Of a DNA stretch of 64,000 nucleotides, positions 55,196 to 63,757 are shown in pieces. The position numbers and the translations under genes are program-made. Numbering within the stretch: the first letter of the stretch is position 1; each line of letters starts with the position of its first letter. The notes under the pieces were generated by a model, which was not told the DNA's origin, did not search any database, and was given only the letters and a program-made list of their open reading frames with translations. Source of the stretch: a virus; IMG/VR virus record IMGVR_UViG_3300021963_000094, positions 1 through 64,000 of that record. The stretch is one strand, 5' to 3'.

Positions 55196-56179
55196 ATGGA
55201 CAATTTAGACATTTTCAGTTTGGACAACGAGGACTTCTTAAAGCCCGAACCAGCAACCACAGGAAGCGGAGACGCTAACATTTACAAGCCTTATCCAGAA
55301 TTAGGCAAAGACGGTGTTTACAAAGCACTTATCAGATTTCTACCTAACGTAGCAAATCCAAAAAAATCAAAAATCCATAAGTATTACGTTTGGTTGAAAG
55401 ACCCAGTAGACAACAGCAACTTCGTTGCAGATTGTCCATCAACTGTTGGTAAGAAATCAATCTTGAAAGATATCTTCTGGAAATTAAAAAACTCCCCATC
55501 TGCAAAAGATCAAGAGTTAGCAAAATCATTTGCTAGAAAAGAAGACTACTATTCTTTAGTACAAATAGTAAAAGATCCTAACCACCCTGAATTAGAAGGT
55601 AAGGTTATGGTATTTAAATTTGGTAAAAAAGTTGCAGATCTAATCGAGCAACAAATTAAACCAGAATATGGTAATCCATGCAACCCTTATGATTTATTTG
55701 AAGGTAAAAACTTCGGTATTCATGTAAGAAAAGTTGGAGACTGGAACAACTACGATCTTTGCCAATTCGTTGGTGAGAAAGGACCAATCTCAATCGATGG
55801 TACACCAGTAGAAAAATCAGAAGACGATCAAAAAAGAATTGTTGAGTATTTAAAGAAAGGTCCACAAGACTTAGTAGAGAAATACGACTACAAAGAATGG
55901 ACTGATGAAGACCGTGAAAAAATCACATCTATCATTAGAAACATCGTACCAGACGGAAGAATGGTAGCAGAAATTCTTTCAGGATCCCCAGATTCTAGAC
56001 CTTCTACTAGCATCAACAATCCACTTAAAAACGAAGCTAAGAAAAGTCCAGCACCAGCTGATGATTTCTTCGGCGATTCATCATCTCCTGACGAGATCGA
56101 AGAACCAGCACCGAAGGCAGCTCCTAAAAAGGCAGCATCATCTTCAGGAAGTTTAGACGATTTGTATAACGATCTCTAA
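55196..56179 (+). CDS. ssDNA-binding protein, gp32-like
   Basis: A 327-aa protein of the T4 gp32 type, which coats single-stranded DNA and coordinates the replisome. The N-terminal segment precedes a core with GVYKALIRFLPNVANPKKS (about 40-58), KYYVWLKDPVDN (about 61-72) and FGIHVRKVGDWNNYD. The end is acidic (about 285-327, DDFFGDSSSPDEIEE, then SLDDLYNDL), as in gp32, where this tail contacts other replication proteins. T4 gp32 binds zinc through a His-Cys3 set; here only one of those cysteines is evident (DCPST), so the zinc site seems lost. It is preceded by a repeat-containing leader that may hold autoregulation. Confidence 0.82.
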   Translation: MDNLDIFSLDNEDFLKPEPATTGSGDANIYKPYPELGKDGVYKALIRFLPNVANPKKSKIHKYYVWLKDPVDNSNFVADCPSTVGKKSILKDIFWKLKNSPSAKDQELAKSFARKEDYYSLVQIVKDPNHPELEGKVMVFKFGKKVADLIEQQIKPEYGNPCNPYDLFEGKNFGIHVRKVGDWNNYDLCQFVGEKGPISIDGTPVEKSEDDQKRIVEYLKKGPQDLVEKYDYKEWTDEDREKITSIIRNIVPDGRMVAEILSGSPDSRPSTSINNPLKNEAKKSPAPADDFFGDSSSPDEIEEPAPKAAPKKAASSSGSLDDLYNDL

Positions 56180-57902: not shown

Positions 57903-59444
57903 ATGCTAAAATTTATAGTATCTGAAGACCTTCAATGGTTACTTTTACAAGACTACGATGAAGAGGTTGACAGAAAGCAACTTGAAATATCTTTAACAAG
58001 AAAAATACACAATTATTTTTTTCATCCACTCGTGAAGAAAAAACATTGGGATGGAGCAATTTGCTTTGTTGACAAGCGTGGTCCATTGTGGAGAATCCCT
58101 AGTGGTCTTTGGAGTGAGGTTTTTGAAATCGGTGAAAAATATAAAATAGAGGTTGAGATAATAGGCCTTGATAAAATAGTAGATGGTAATTTAACCCTTG
58201 AAGAATTCACTGAATGGGCTAATGAATTTTTTGCAGATAAAGAATTAAAGCCTAGAGACTATCAGATAGAAGCTGCATGGAGAATTGTTAAATTTAGATT
58301 TTCCTGTTTGGAAATTGCAACATCATCGGGTAAGACCCTAATTGCATTTATTGTTCTTGCGTACTTAAAAAATGTAAGGGGAATCAATAAATTTCTGATG
58401 ATAGTTCCTAATACCACATTGATCTTGCAGGGATCTGAAGATTTCGAAGGATATGGATTGAAGGAATTAGATAACTGTGACATTCAATTGATCCATGGAG
58501 GAAATAAGAATAAAATCTCGGGAGGATTAATGATTGGTACGTATCAATCTCTTGTTAAGCAAGAAGATGATTTCTTTGATGGTGTTGAAGCTATCTTTGT
58601 TGATGAATCACATCAATCCCATTCCAAGTCAATTAAAGAGGTTATATCTAAGTGTAAGGATTCGAGATATAGATTCGGTCTTTCAGGAACATTGACAAAC
58701 AGAAACACCGCAGAACATTTAACTATCCAGCAGTACCTAGGTCCATTAACCATGGAGATTAGTCCTAAGTTTTTGTTTGATAACAAGTACGCCACACCTG
58801 TCGCTATTAAAATAGTTAAGATGGATTGGCTGGACGAAAACCTCAAACAAAAACTTTACGAACTGAGGACCAATAAAAATAACAAGGACACCGAAAAGTT
58901 GGAAGGGAGTGAAATATTCGGGGTGGAAAGAAAGCTTGTTATATCTTCAGACAAAAGATTAAAATATATCGTAGATTTTATTGCTAAGACAAGTAAAAAT
59001 TCACTTGTGCTTTTCCAGTCTGTTGGTGAGGGATACGGTAAAAGAATATACGAGAATCTAAGGGAGATCCAAGCAGACAAGGAAGTTTTTTATATAGACG
59101 GTGACACTGATCCCGAGAGAAGAGACTATTACAAGACCAAACTTGAAGAAGGAGCTAACAAAGTTATGGTAGCAAGCTTTGGTACACTTAGTACCGGGGT
59201 TTCTGTGAAGAATATTCACAATATATTTTTGGTCGAATCATATAAATCTGAGGTTTTGATCAAACAAAGCTTAGGAAGGGGTATGAGACTTTACGAGGGC
59301 AAGGAAAGGGTAAATATCATCGATTTTGTGGACGATTTCTCCTATGAGGGGTCTATGAATTATCTAATGAAGCATTCTCTGGAAAGGATAGAAATATACA
59401 AAAGGGAGAAGTTTGAATATAAGACCTACGATATTACTCTTTAG
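57903..59444 (+). CDS. uvsW: UvsW-like branch-migrating helicase
   Basis: A 513-aa superfamily 2 helicase. The N-terminal domain (1-105) resembles the UvsW accessory domain, with HPLVKKKHWDGAICFVDKRG (about 41-60) in the place of T4's 'NPRFRYGNWDGRIRLLD'. The Walker A is TSSGKT (140-145), the DEAD-type box is DESH (234-237), the SGT motif is at 261-263, and motif VI is QSLGRGMR (455-462). T4 UvsW unwinds branched DNA and RNA-DNA hybrids and shifts replication from origin-initiated to recombination-dependent mode. The length matches (T4 UvsW is about 503 aa). It closes the replication block and is followed by a candidate promoter. Confidence 0.9.
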   Translation: MLKFIVSEDLQWLLLQDYDEEVDRKQLEISLTRKIHNYFFHPLVKKKHWDGAICFVDKRGPLWRIPSGLWSEVFEIGEKYKIEVEIIGLDKIVDGNLTLEEFTEWANEFFADKELKPRDYQIEAAWRIVKFRFSCLEIATSSGKTLIAFIVLAYLKNVRGINKFLMIVPNTTLILQGSEDFEGYGLKELDNCDIQLIHGGNKNKISGGLMIGTYQSLVKQEDDFFDGVEAIFVDESHQSHSKSIKEVISKCKDSRYRFGLSGTLTNRNTAEHLTIQQYLGPLTMEISPKFLFDNKYATPVAIKIVKMDWLDENLKQKLYELRTNKNNKDTEKLEGSEIFGVERKLVISSDKRLKYIVDFIAKTSKNSLVLFQSVGEGYGKRIYENLREIQADKEVFYIDGDTDPERRDYYKTKLEEGANKVMVASFGTLSTGVSVKNIHNIFLVESYKSEVLIKQSLGRGMRLYEGKERVNIIDFVDDFSYEGSMNYLMKHSLERIEIYKREKFEYKTYDITL

Positions 59445-60459: not shown

Positions 60460-60888
60460 ATGTACGATATATTTTTCCCTATTATTGAGCACTATACAGG
60501 AACTGTGGTATCGAAGGTAAGAAGAATAGATGAACTAATTCTATTCCGAACCATACAGGGTCAAGCAGGTAAGATAGAGAGAAATTTATACGGAGATTGG
60601 GATTTATTGGTTGATGAGGAAAAAGTAGCTGAAATAGAAGATGTGTTATTTTCTATCTTTTGTGAGTCCAAGGATCAACCCCCAATTGACAAGTATTATA
60701 AAGAATTATTAAGATTAAAAAATAAAGGCGTATTGAATTATAAATCCAATGTGCTAGTAGATCAACTAATAACTTCCATAGAATTTCTAATTCTACACAT
60801 GGAAGTTCAATTAGAAGATCCTATAGCAATGGGACCTTATTATACATTCAGCCACAATGGAACTAAACACGTTTTAGTATTAAATTAA
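60460..60888 (+). CDS. Small unrecognised protein (142 aa)
   Basis: A 142-aa acidic protein with alternating hydrophobic and charged segments and no recognised motif. A segment near 80-115 (KELLRLKNKGVLNYKSNVLVDQLITSIEF) looks helical. It ends 4 nt before the ligase/nucleotidyltransferase fusion gene, so it may be co-expressed with it. Function unknown. Confidence 0.6.
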   Translation: MYDIFFPIIEHYTGTVVSKVRRIDELILFRTIQGQAGKIERNLYGDWDLLVDEEKVAEIEDVLFSIFCESKDQPPIDKYYKELLRLKNKGVLNYKSNVLVDQLITSIEFLILHMEVQLEDPIAMGPYYTFSHNGTKHVLVLN

Positions 60889-60892
60889 AAAT

Positions 60893-62869
60893 ATGGCAGG
60901 GATAAAACATTTAAGCGAGATTTACAAAAAACAAGGAGCGCAATTCCTTGATGATTTATTTGGAAAGGAATTAACAGTTTCTGAAAAATTAAATGGGATG
61001 AGCTTTTCTTTCGAGAAAAGTATCTTCGACGGATCTCTGTCTTTTTATAAAAGAGATCAGGTAAATCCCATCTCAAAAATTGATCGTGTACTAATGAAGT
61101 ACTACGAATCACCAATTTCACACATTCAGGAACTACCAGCATTAACTTTAGACGAAATCCCTAGCGGATGGAGATTTGGGATGGAATTTTTTATTAATCC
61201 TAGTCCAGTTTTAGTTTCCTATCAAAGAGTACCTAAAAATGGATTGGTTCTGACACATATTGTTGTTAAGAATCAATTCGGTGACGTTGAAAGAACTATC
61301 GTTGAAAAAGAAGAACTAGATTACTGGGCAGATCTTTTAGGCGTTGAAACACCACCTATCATATTTCAGGGTAAGCTATCTGACGAGCAAAAAGTATCAA
61401 TTAATGATTTTGTTAATTCACCGCATGATAATCTTAAGAAAGATCACGGAACAGAAAGCTTTGCTAAATATCTTGTTACCATTTTAAATCCAGGGTTAAA
61501 TAAAACATTCCTAAATGATTCTTTGGAAGAACCAATAGAGGGTGTGGTATTTAGATTTGGATCGATTGATGGGACAGGAGAATCTTTCACTGCAAAGATA
61601 TTAGATCCGGTTTTTGAAGATATCACAAGACAGAACAATGTAAAGAAGGTAAGTTATTTTCCAAGCGATATCTACGGAATTACTATACTAGAAGTGATGA
61701 ACTACATCCTCGATAAAGGAGTTGATTCATTCTCATTTACCGGGGAGGATCCACAAGACAAATATATTTCTTTTGTGTGTTCTGTGTTCAATTCATTCAC
61801 TGATGAATATGGAGAAAAATATTTAGGACTTGATTTTCAAGAGCCTCAATTTTTAAAGCAAGAAGGATTTGAATCAAATCACGATTTAATTCAAGATGAG
61901 AAAACAAGATCTTTAATTACTGATGATGAAAGCTATGAGTCTCTTTTCAAATTAATTCTTTCTGCTTTCAGAAAAATCAAGAAAAGACCTGGAGGGTTTT
62001 TCACACAGGGAGCTATTGAACAATTTAATTTATTGGTTAAAGAAATCTCCGAATACCTAAACAACAATTCAATCGTTGTTGAATCTATCATTCCAACATT
62101 CGATCAATTCAGAAAGGTTAAAAAACCTTTCATTCCTCAAGAGGAAGAGGATGAAGAGGATATCGAAGATGAGGTTGAGGAAATTCCAAGAGATGAAGTT
62201 GTAGAAGAACCTGTAGAGAACCCGATCGAAGAACCAGAGGTTGAAATCGAGGAAGACCCAATAGGAGATGAAGTAGTTTTAGATCCAGAAGTTATTGATC
62301 AAATCAAAACAGCACTTGGACAAAATGAACCGATTTCACAGAAATCTGTAGAAGATGACGTTAGAAGAGTAAACATAGTGATTGGTAAATTCCAACCTTT
62401 CAACAACGGTCACTTAAAGATGATTAAAAAAGCAAATCAGAATAACGGATTACCTGTTGCTGTGTTTGTAATTAAACCAGGTCCACATAGCTTCATAGAC
62501 GATCAAACGATGGACAAGATGATGGGAATAGTATCCAACGATCTTTCTGATGTGATAGACTCTGTTCATTATGTTGATGATGATCTTTTATCAACAGCTG
62601 TTCAAACCCTTGGAGATAAATATGAGCCCAAAACATTGACTGTTGGGAAGAAAAGATTGGATAATTATTTGCTTCAAACAAGATCATTAAAGAAGAGAAA
62701 AAAGCTAAACCCTGCTTTTCAAATTCAAACTTCACCTGAATGGATCAATTCAATGGATGTATCCAAGACTATCCAAGAGAAAAATTACATGGAATTCAAA
62801 AAGAACGTTCCTAAATCTCTCTCCGGCCTTTGGGAGGAACTCACAAGATGCTACGATTCGTCTAAATAA
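60893..62869 (+). CDS. Fusion: RNA/DNA-ligase-type nucleotidyltransferase plus NMNAT-like domain
   Basis: A 658-aa protein of two enzyme-like halves. Residues 1-240 have the covalent nucleotidyltransferase set of RNA/DNA ligases: K32 in SEKLNGMSF (motif I), GWRFGMEFF (about 91-99, IIIa), IEGVVFRFG (about 217-225, IV) and FTAKILDP (about 233-240, V). The middle (to about 415) is unknown, and 416-460 is strongly acidic. Residues about 490-640 look like a nucleotidylyltransferase (NMNAT/cytidylyltransferase type): VIGKFQPFNNGHLKMI (about 495-510) contains the xxGH motif, and MDVSKTIQEKNYMEF fits the late S-x-T site. Phages are known to carry NMNAT enzymes and RNA ligases separately; this fusion is unusual. 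It may link NAD or nucleotide metabolism to nucleic-acid end repair; that is inference. Confidence 0.72.
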   Translation: MAGIKHLSEIYKKQGAQFLDDLFGKELTVSEKLNGMSFSFEKSIFDGSLSFYKRDQVNPISKIDRVLMKYYESPISHIQELPALTLDEIPSGWRFGMEFFINPSPVLVSYQRVPKNGLVLTHIVVKNQFGDVERTIVEKEELDYWADLLGVETPPIIFQGKLSDEQKVSINDFVNSPHDNLKKDHGTESFAKYLVTILNPGLNKTFLNDSLEEPIEGVVFRFGSIDGTGESFTAKILDPVFEDITRQNNVKKVSYFPSDIYGITILEVMNYILDKGVDSFSFTGEDPQDKYISFVCSVFNSFTDEYGEKYLGLDFQEPQFLKQEGFESNHDLIQDEKTRSLITDDESYESLFKLILSAFRKIKKRPGGFFTQGAIEQFNLLVKEISEYLNNNSIVVESIIPTFDQFRKVKKPFIPQEEEDEEDIEDEVEEIPRDEVVEEPVENPIEEPEVEIEEDPIGDEVVLDPEVIDQIKTALGQNEPISQKSVEDDVRRVNIVIGKFQPFNNGHLKMIKKANQNNGLPVAVFVIKPGPHSFIDDQTMDKMMGIVSNDLSDVIDSVHYVDDDLLSTAVQTLGDKYEPKTLTVGKKRLDNYLLQTRSLKKRKKLNPAFQIQTSPEWINSMDVSKTIQEKNYMEFKKNVPKSLSGLWEELTRCYDSSK

Positions 62870-62947: not shown

Positions 62948-63757
62948 ATGTCTAAATTAGTAAAATGGAAAGACTATAGCAAAATCTACGAGGATGCTAA
63001 TTCCAATACAGGTATCGATGAGGTAGCTGCCAAAAAAATACAAAAATGCCAGATTATTTTAATAACCCAAGCGGCATTTTTTGGCCAGCTTTGCATGAAT
63101 CTAAAATTCATAGAGGATAGAAATTTAAGATTCAAAACCATGGCTACCGACGGAATGAATATTTATTATGATCCAGGTTTCGTTAATGATCACACGGATG
63201 CAGAAATTAGATGGGTAATATGTCATGAGATATTACACTGCTCTTTGCATCACTTTTTAAGAAAGCAGGCAAATCCTAGTATTTGGAATATGGCAGCTGA
63301 TTATGAAATCAATCAATTGATAGATCCTAAAAATTATACATCTAAGCCAACTTATCAAAATGCTTTGGGAACAATGCCTTCTGGTGCTTTAGGTGGTTCT
63401 GGTGATAAAGATAAAGGATTTTTAAATGGCGATTACAAAGGTAAAGCAGCAGAGCAAATCTATCAAATGCTCATAGAAAATAACACACAAGTACCTCCTG
63501 AAGAAGGGTGGAATTACGGAGGGGTTCAGCCTCCTGTCATGGTTTCTGCCCCTCCGGGATCTGGCGGTGGGAATGATGAAGATTATGGTGAAAAAGCAAA
63601 GGTTGGTGATTATGTTGCCTTACCTGGTGGAGGATACGGAAAGATCGAATCAATTGATCCTGCAACAGGTGATGCTGATATTACACAAGTAACAGAGCCA
63701 GATTTGAGGTCAATGATTGAATCAAAAACGGGTAAAACAGTTAAAAAAATAAGCTAA
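62948..63757 (+). CDS. Putative zinc metallopeptidase-like protein (HExxH), VWA-system type
   Basis: A 269-aa protein with a zinc-protease-like motif, ICHEILHCSLHHFLRK (91-106; HEILH at 93-97), followed by WNMAADYEIN (113-122), as in the putative metallopeptidase domain (DUF2201 N-terminal type) that often pairs with a VWA protein and an AAA ATPase. The N-terminal helix (1-50) precedes the domain. The second half has Gly-rich linkers (SGGGNDEDYGEK) and a small beta barrel-like part (VGDYVALPGGGYGKIESIDPATGD, about 217-240). The next gene begins as a proline-rich protein that might be its partner. It could act in virion maturation or host-protein turnover; not shown. Confidence 0.68.
   Translation: MSKLVKWKDYSKIYEDANSNTGIDEVAAKKIQKCQIILITQAAFFGQLCMNLKFIEDRNLRFKTMATDGMNIYYDPGFVNDHTDAEIRWVICHEILHCSLHHFLRKQANPSIWNMAADYEINQLIDPKNYTSKPTYQNALGTMPSGALGGSGDKDKGFLNGDYKGKAAEQIYQMLIENNTQVPPEEGWNYGGVQPPVMVSAPPGSGGGNDEDYGEKAKVGDYVALPGGGYGKIESIDPATGDADITQVTEPDLRSMIESKTGKTVKKIS

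Follow-up and report, generated by a model that had tools for sequence, protein, structure and literature searches.

The plus-strand gene at 60893-62869 of the window (the whole stretch of viral DNA analysed here, 64,000 nucleotides) encodes a protein of 658 aa in which a ligase resembling T4 RNA ligase 2 (Rnl2) and a HIGH-superfamily nucleotidyltransferase (NTase) of the NMNAT/PPAT fold are joined in one chain, as assigned from the open reading frame, an AlphaFold model and Foldseek comparison. This is a new architecture assembled from known enzyme kinds, and the pairing is ancient and widespread among uncultured T4-like phages. Our preferred reading, to which we give a probability of about one in two, is that it would be a two-module adenylyl-transfer protein in the repair of nucleic-acid ends, probably those of RNA, with the window copy comprising a ligase and a non-catalytic C-terminal half. 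A large and apparently undescribed phage family physically couples the two enzyme folds by which A(5')pp(5')X bonds are formed, the one on nucleic acids and the other on nucleotides.

The reading frame is intact, with an ATG start and no internal stops. It belongs to a virus record of 74.5 kb, and T4-like genes lie close to it, among them those for a gp32-like SSB (at 55196), a primase (56200) and UvsY (57451). An artefact of assembly or frame was ruled out, since more than 100 distinct homologous fusions were found on independent contigs.

Predicted structure of the fusion

Searches of the PDB and PHROGs with the single sequence yielded almost no information. An AlphaFold model was built from an alignment of 73 relatives (mean pLDDT 84, with disorder in the acidic linker only) and compared with the PDB by Foldseek. 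The top match was T4 RNA ligase 2 (2hvr; E 3.5e-8 over 381 columns, including the second domain of 2hvr), and the next were NaMN, pantetheine-phosphate and NMN adenylyltransferases, which matched the C-terminal half (E 2.5e-6). A previous sequence-only reading of this DNA had proposed a ligase half and an NMNAT-like half in one chain, to be checked by structure prediction; the motifs that it named are all present (KLNG at residues 32-35, EGVVFRF at 216-222, AKILDP at 234-239 and GKFQPFNNGH at 498-507), and the predicted structure bears the proposal out, with a fold match to T4 Rnl2 for the N-terminal half and to nucleotide adenylyltransferases for the C-terminal half.

In the model, an Rnl2-type nucleotidyltransferase core (residues 1-245; 60893-61627), assigned from Foldseek matches to 2hvr, 2hvq and 1s68, from Pfam and from profile alignment, is followed by an all-helical region (residues 246-400; 61628-62092), defined from the AlphaFold secondary structure and Foldseek. 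An acidic linker, mostly disordered (residues 405-488; 62105-62356; pLDDT below 50 at 421-464 and 475-488) and the fastest-evolving part of the fusion, then leads to a HIGH-superfamily nucleotidyltransferase fold whose nearest relatives, by Foldseek and profile models, are NaMNAT, PPAT and NMNAT (residues 489-658; 62357-62866). As the Foldseek match includes the second domain of 2hvr (381 columns on a target of 319 residues), residues 246-400 sit where the helical C-terminal domain of Rnl2 does, a placement to which sequence profile alignment with Rnl2 lends no support of its own for these residues. The full-length Rnl2 match thus extends over what had been described as a long unknown region between the halves, and it is the acidic linker that is disordered. 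The rmsd is high when both ligase domains are aligned together, so their placement relative to each other in the model is unreliable.

The ligase half

The Pfam RNA_ligase model aligned to residues 26-221 of the window protein below the cut-off (E=0.001-0.003), scoring 18.4 bits against the curated 27 of PF09414, where a relative of 657 aa (G016) scored 29.9; the model matched 33 of the 73 aligned relatives, the best at 1.6e-7. When the fusion family was aligned by profile (hhalign) with ten phage Rnl2 proteins, K32, R54, E98, E216 and K235 fell opposite K35, R55, E99, E204 and K225 of T4 Rnl2; the hhalign score against Rnl2 alone is weak (P about 0.01-0.02) and serves for register only, and the motifs co-align. 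By this register K32, within motif I (E31-K32-L-N-G35; 60983-60997), lies opposite the adenylated Lys35 of T4 Rnl2, R54 (61052-61054) corresponds to motif Ia, E98 (61184-61186) to motif III, E216 (61538-61540) to motif IV and K235 (61595-61597) to motif V, and position 237, that of Rnl2 K227, is Leu. The Lys of motif I, the Arg of Ia and the Glu residues of III and IV are conserved across the family, K32 being retained in 98 of 117 sequences. On these residues, the ligase half of the window protein is predicted to be active as a ligase.

Motif V of the family holds a single Lys, with K or R at position 233 or 237 in none of the 117 sequences. T4 Rnl2 uses two lysines in this motif, of which K227 is required for adenylyl transfer, and its K227Q mutant keeps step 3 and has lost adenylyl transfer (PMC3149579). 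The single-Lys motif V was also seen in other phage Rnl2-type ligases, some of them from the same genomes as the fusion, which indicates that the lysine pair marks T4-like Rnl2 and not the wider family. The missing lysine therefore counts against the ligase reading but is not decisive, and we dropped it as proof of a ligase for pre-adenylated ends.

The nucleotidyltransferase half

The Pfam CTP_transf_like model matched 68 of the 73 aligned relatives (best 6e-14) and the window protein below threshold (E=0.002-0.004), and NMNAT-type NCBIfam models matched most of the 73. In canonical members this half is nearest to NadM-type NMNATs (TIGR01527, PRK01153 and NadM-Nudix, with best E of ~1e-9 to 1e-10). 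In the window copy, GKFQPFNNGH (62384-62413) is the HxGH motif with its first His replaced by Asn504, and WINSMDVS (62741-62764) is a decayed (I)SATxVR motif in which Arg624 has become Ser. The window clade has N504, H507, K587, R588, E616 and S624, against H/T, H, D, R, R and R in canonical members; it lacks the His of HxGH, the Asp of GxDR and the Arg of SxTxxR, and it retains K32, E98, E216 and K235 of the ligase. A "late SKT-type site" (624-626), previously taken for a functional motif, sits at the (I)SATxVR of the relatives, with Ser624 in the place of the conserved Arg. Because N, K, E and S stand where the family has the catalytic His504, Asp587, Arg616 and Arg624, the NMN adenylyltransferase role once suggested for this protein is unsupported for the window copy, for which an NMNAT annotation would be wrong. 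Going by these replacements, the chemistry of its second half has probably been lost.

Both halves of the window clade are nevertheless under strong purifying selection. In comparisons with the closest relatives, the ligase core gave a dN/dS of 0.02-0.03 and the NTase half one of 0.035-0.037, values that are rough as dS is near saturation; against the more distant L004 the values were 0.07 and 0.12. The NTase half of the window protein is probably a constrained, non-catalytic module for binding or positioning.

Distribution of the family and catalytic status across the tree

In IMG/VR, 8 relatives were found for the whole protein, 289 for the N-terminal half and 298 for the C-terminal half, and loci were analysed for the best 80 of the 289 and the best 80 of the 298. 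Both halves were present in 159 of the 175 ORFs among the matches listed, with the ligase half alone in 12 and the NTase half alone in 4. At least 107 distinct proteins at these loci carry both halves, downstream of uvsW, so that the same fusion does recur in related phages, where the sequence-only reading had suggested looking for it. At least one full-length fusion is present in BFVD, where A0A6J5NWC5 gave a full-length structural match (E 4.9e-52). Annotated phages yielded relatives of the NTase half only (Campylobacter CP220-like and Stenotrophomonas phages), and a scan of genome contigs gave four weak loci, one of them on a Flavobacteriaceae MAG contig. The ligase half stands alone in metagenomic phages of 635-735 kb, with Asp or Asn in place of K32. 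No published description of the fusion was found in the open-access papers searched, in keeping with the earlier suggestion that it was undescribed.

At four loci (L090, L091, L159 and L164) the ligase and NTase halves lie on separate ORFs, where each is attached to further long regions of unknown type. The ORF for the NTase half at L090 begins MKNLKNIDTFLVEK, with MKNLKSINEFLVREK as a second such sequence in its interior, as though modules bearing targeting peptides had been fused. Two fusions (L077 and L149) carry a third, C-terminal domain of ~200 aa; in other phages this domain (family C4, function unknown) is encoded on its own, by a downstream gene of about 180 aa.

When the 107 distinct fusions among the matches listed were sorted by their catalytic residues, 72 had both sets, 18 the ligase set only, 5 the NTase set only and 12 neither. 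Doubly intact fusions occur in each of the two deep halves into which the tree divides, which makes a bifunctional ancestor the simplest reading, and the residues suggest that the ancestral fusion probably was bifunctional; the tree requires three changes at K32 and two at Arg624. K32 has been lost in some lineages, in which catalysis is therefore dispensable; a few lineages without it (L010, L146 and L151) have an intact NTase. Within a single subclade both halves have lost residues, with conservation of the whole domains maintained. With ligase-only, NTase-only and doubly changed natural 'mutants' in one tree, the division of labour between the halves is testable.

Gene neighbourhood and upstream partners

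A gene for a UvsW-like helicase (57903-59444, plus strand) is a conserved upstream feature, lying 2-6 genes before the fusion in 66 of the compared loci. The immediate upstream neighbour (60460-60888, plus strand; 142 aa), of a family without known function, holds this position in 30 compared loci. On the other side, a putative DUF2201_N metallopeptidase (62948-63757, plus strand) is a neighbour typical of the clade with a decayed NTase, most members of which carry genes for DUF2201_N, a VWA-like protein and an AAA ATPase on the downstream side. At 62948-64697, as at L099 and L102, DUF2201_N, a VWA-like DUF2201 protein and an AAA ATPase form a conserved trio of this clade, and the ATPase bears a capsid-targeting-like N-terminus.

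Canonical relatives have a partner gene of one of two families (C8 and C13) within the two genes upstream of the fusion. Taking H/T504, H507 and R624 together as an intact NTase, a partner was found upstream of 53 of the 54 intact-NTase fusions and of none of the 18 decayed ones; as no more than two independent losses of the NTase lie behind it, this association is not statistically independent evidence. C8 is a family of 311 aa whose structure model (pLDDT 90) matched pol beta, pol mu, CutA and GLD-2 with probabilities up to 0.99 and E of 0.009-0.07; with a best E of only 0.009, the model is suggestive, not certain, of a polbeta-superfamily nucleotidyltransferase. This polbeta-like gene is near the fusion in 33 relatives. 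A search that detected the positive control found it in none of ten records, of which eight have a decayed NTase, and there was none beside the window gene or in the window-clade records searched. Distant relatives of C8, at about 28% identity, are found in the Prevotella Lak megaphages (MK250015-MK250029).

The other partner, C13 or 'lig2', is a family of 426 aa that appears ligase-like from its motif order, TEKTDGQN ... FMNMELIY ... EGIVF ... YKLTG, an assignment to which Pfam gives no support; L168 is among the loci with this ligase-like partner upstream. In Microcystis phage Mel-JY01, the protein WWT39297.1 (L209 4323-6242) has an N-terminal HIGH-type NTase, recognised by its motifs, followed by a lig2 domain (E 5e-124), and is on those motifs a second, independent fusion of an NTase to a ligase-like protein. 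LR756508 likewise has a HIGH-type NTase N-terminal to the lig2 domain.

Proposed role and alternative explanations

In the mechanism that we prefer, the Rnl2-type ligase (core and helical region) would be tethered through the flexible acidic linker to the NadM-like HIGH-superfamily adenylyltransferase. The ligase half would activate a 5'-phosphate with AMP through Lys32 and then join it to a 3'-OH, the NTase half would build the same type of A(5')pp(5')X linkage with NMN or a related 5'-phosphate as its substrate, and the polbeta-type neighbour or second ligase-like protein may process or extend the ends. The window lineage lacks both the partner gene and the catalytic residues of the NTase, and its protein is predicted to be a ligase. 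RlaP, a polbeta NTase, is known from RNA repair as a neighbour of RNA ligase (PMC7824862), and the polbeta-type nucleotidyltransferase that lies near the fusion in canonical relatives strengthens the case for a role in RNA-end repair.

Other genes of these phages bear on this role. A separate ATP-dependent DNA ligase (DNA_ligase_A_M) was present in 22 of 30 relatives' records, Rnl1 in 15 of 30, with additional PF09414 ligases in many, and NadV (NAPRTase) in 11 of 30; two window-clade records checked for NadV (245 and 219 kb) had none, though the records may be fragments. From these counts the fusion is not the replicative ligase, nor is it simply an enzyme of salvage, and we rejected it as the sole DNA ligase of the phage and as a plain NAD-salvage protein. 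It was likewise rejected as the main RNA-repair ligase, as the same records often hold Rnl1 and separate PF09414 ligases. Since separate DNA and RNA ligases are usual in these phages, the fusion would be an extra, specialised module for end joining or adenylyl transfer.

A bolder version, which we consider rather doubtful, has the NadM-like domain feeding the Rnl2-like ligase in cis, by NMN recycling or by way of App-ended or NAD-capped RNA, with the window lineage reduced to the ligase and a non-catalytic sensor of cofactor or RNA ends. Such cis-fed ligation, if true, would be a mode absent from the papers searched, and the family offers a handle on whether phages connect RNA-end repair with NAD+ or NMN. 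The initial idea of NAD chemistry placed beside end joining fits the ancestral and canonical members, whose residues are intact, but not the window protein, in which those of the NTase are lost.

It is unlikely that the fusion has a non-catalytic or moonlighting role on old enzyme folds, for instance as a factor of head or virion assembly. T4 RNA ligase 1 has a role in tail-fibre biology, and several observations on this family point the same way. The subclade with losses in both halves kept its domains, and the standalone copies of the 635-735 kb phages are without K32. Many genes near the fusion start with M-x-x-(I/L)K-x-(F/Y)-x-x-F-(I/L/V)-x-E, which resembles the T4 capsid targeting sequence (the N-terminus of T4 ipII/ipIII is MKTYQEFIAEA); the rate of this motif is 12.2 per 1000 sites within residues 1-10 and about 0.6 at residues 10-30, and a prohead protease was found in 23 of 30 relatives' records. 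The N-termini of these neighbours keep a part in virion assembly under consideration. Both catalytic sets are however conserved over both deep branches of the tree, and the window fusion itself is without a peptide of the capsid-targeting kind, its best PSSM score being 2.1 where the threshold is 8. A capsid-packaged polyprotein was rejected because the motif, enriched at the N-termini of neighbours, is absent from the window fusion.

Still less probable is an NMN-recycling loop, in which the ligase half would take AMP from NAD+ and the NMNAT half would rebuild NAD+ from the NMN and ATP. NMN is released by NAD+-dependent ligases (PMC8131947), the C-terminal half of canonical members is nearest to NadM-type NMNATs, and the scarcity of NadV suggests that salvage is not required as a source of NMN. 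The fusion, however, has no domain found to resemble the NAD+-binding Ia of LigA, its nearest ligase fold is the ATP-dependent Rnl2, and the window clade has retained the ligase and lost the NTase, leaving the recycling half decayed in that lineage.

We regard it as very unlikely that the NMNAT-like half places AMP directly on nucleic-acid 5'-phosphates, making App-ends for a ligase half that mainly carries out the last joining step. The A(5')pp(5')X chemistry is identical, the single-Lys motif V recalls the K227Q mutant of T4 Rnl2, which keeps step 3 (PMC3149579), and a few lineages without K32 have an intact NTase. Against this stand the general retention of K32, the occurrence of the single-Lys motif V in other Rnl2-type ligases and the opposite pattern of loss in the window clade, as well as the finding that E. 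coli NadD and NadR neither capped nor decapped RNA (PMC8131947). That the protein serves NAD+ salvage and its ligase domain is vestigial, as the NadM-like second half of canonical members might suggest, is highly improbable given the few records that encode NadV and a window clade that conserves its ligase residues better than those of the NTase.

Comparison with known systems

T4 RNA ligase 2 (Rnl2/RnlB, gp24.1) shares with the N-terminal half its fold, motifs I, Ia, III and IV, the first residue of motif V and the helical region. The fusion differs in its added linker and C-terminal adenylyltransferase and in its one motif V Lys, and sequence similarity between the two is very low. The C-terminal half has the fold of NadM-type NMNATs (archaeal NadM, and the phage NadM-Nudix and NadR-kinase fusions; PMC9503650), and most fusion relatives share their GRFQPF(H/T)xGH and SxTxxR motifs. 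In those phage fusions the partner is a Nudix or kinase domain, whereas here it is a ligase with no tie to NadV, and the window copy lacks the key catalytic residues.

Phage HNH-Rnl2 fusions and the pairing of RlaP with RNA ligases (PMC7824862) likewise combine an RNA-ligase module with a second end-processing enzyme, and the polbeta-like gene that adjoins the fusion in relatives recalls RlaP. Here, in contrast, the fused partner is a HIGH-superfamily adenylyltransferase, and the window clade is without a polbeta gene in the records searched. One phage (L199) has both an HNH endonuclease-Rnl2-type ligase fusion of the kind described (PMC7824862) and the ligase-NTase fusion.

The Mel-JY01 protein, from a cultured phage and named 'cytidylyltransferase like protein', also carries a HIGH-type NTase and a ligase-like domain in one chain, but in the reverse order and with a ligase-like domain of the lig2 family. 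UniProt A0A6J5NWC5 (uncultured Caudovirales phage, 623 aa) is evidently the same fusion, deposited as 'Cytidyltransferase-like domain-containing protein' only, with its ligase half unnamed.

Further observations on neighbouring genes

Targeting-like N-termini were seen on the genes at 64731 and 66902 (positions in the whole record), the first of which has AAA ATPases as homologues, and at related loci (L002-L171). Copies of the motif at the tail of the fusion were confined to an L144-like subgroup and L146. In several relatives' records (G018, G024, G027, G029 and others) the open frames that contain the T4-type prohead protease domain (Peptidase_S77) run to about 640-720 aa, compared with 212 aa for T4 gp21, suggesting a fused or extended protease. 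Beyond the window, at about 71856-74466 of the record, the coding is highly repetitive and open in several frames, possibly representing a collagen-like repeat protein.
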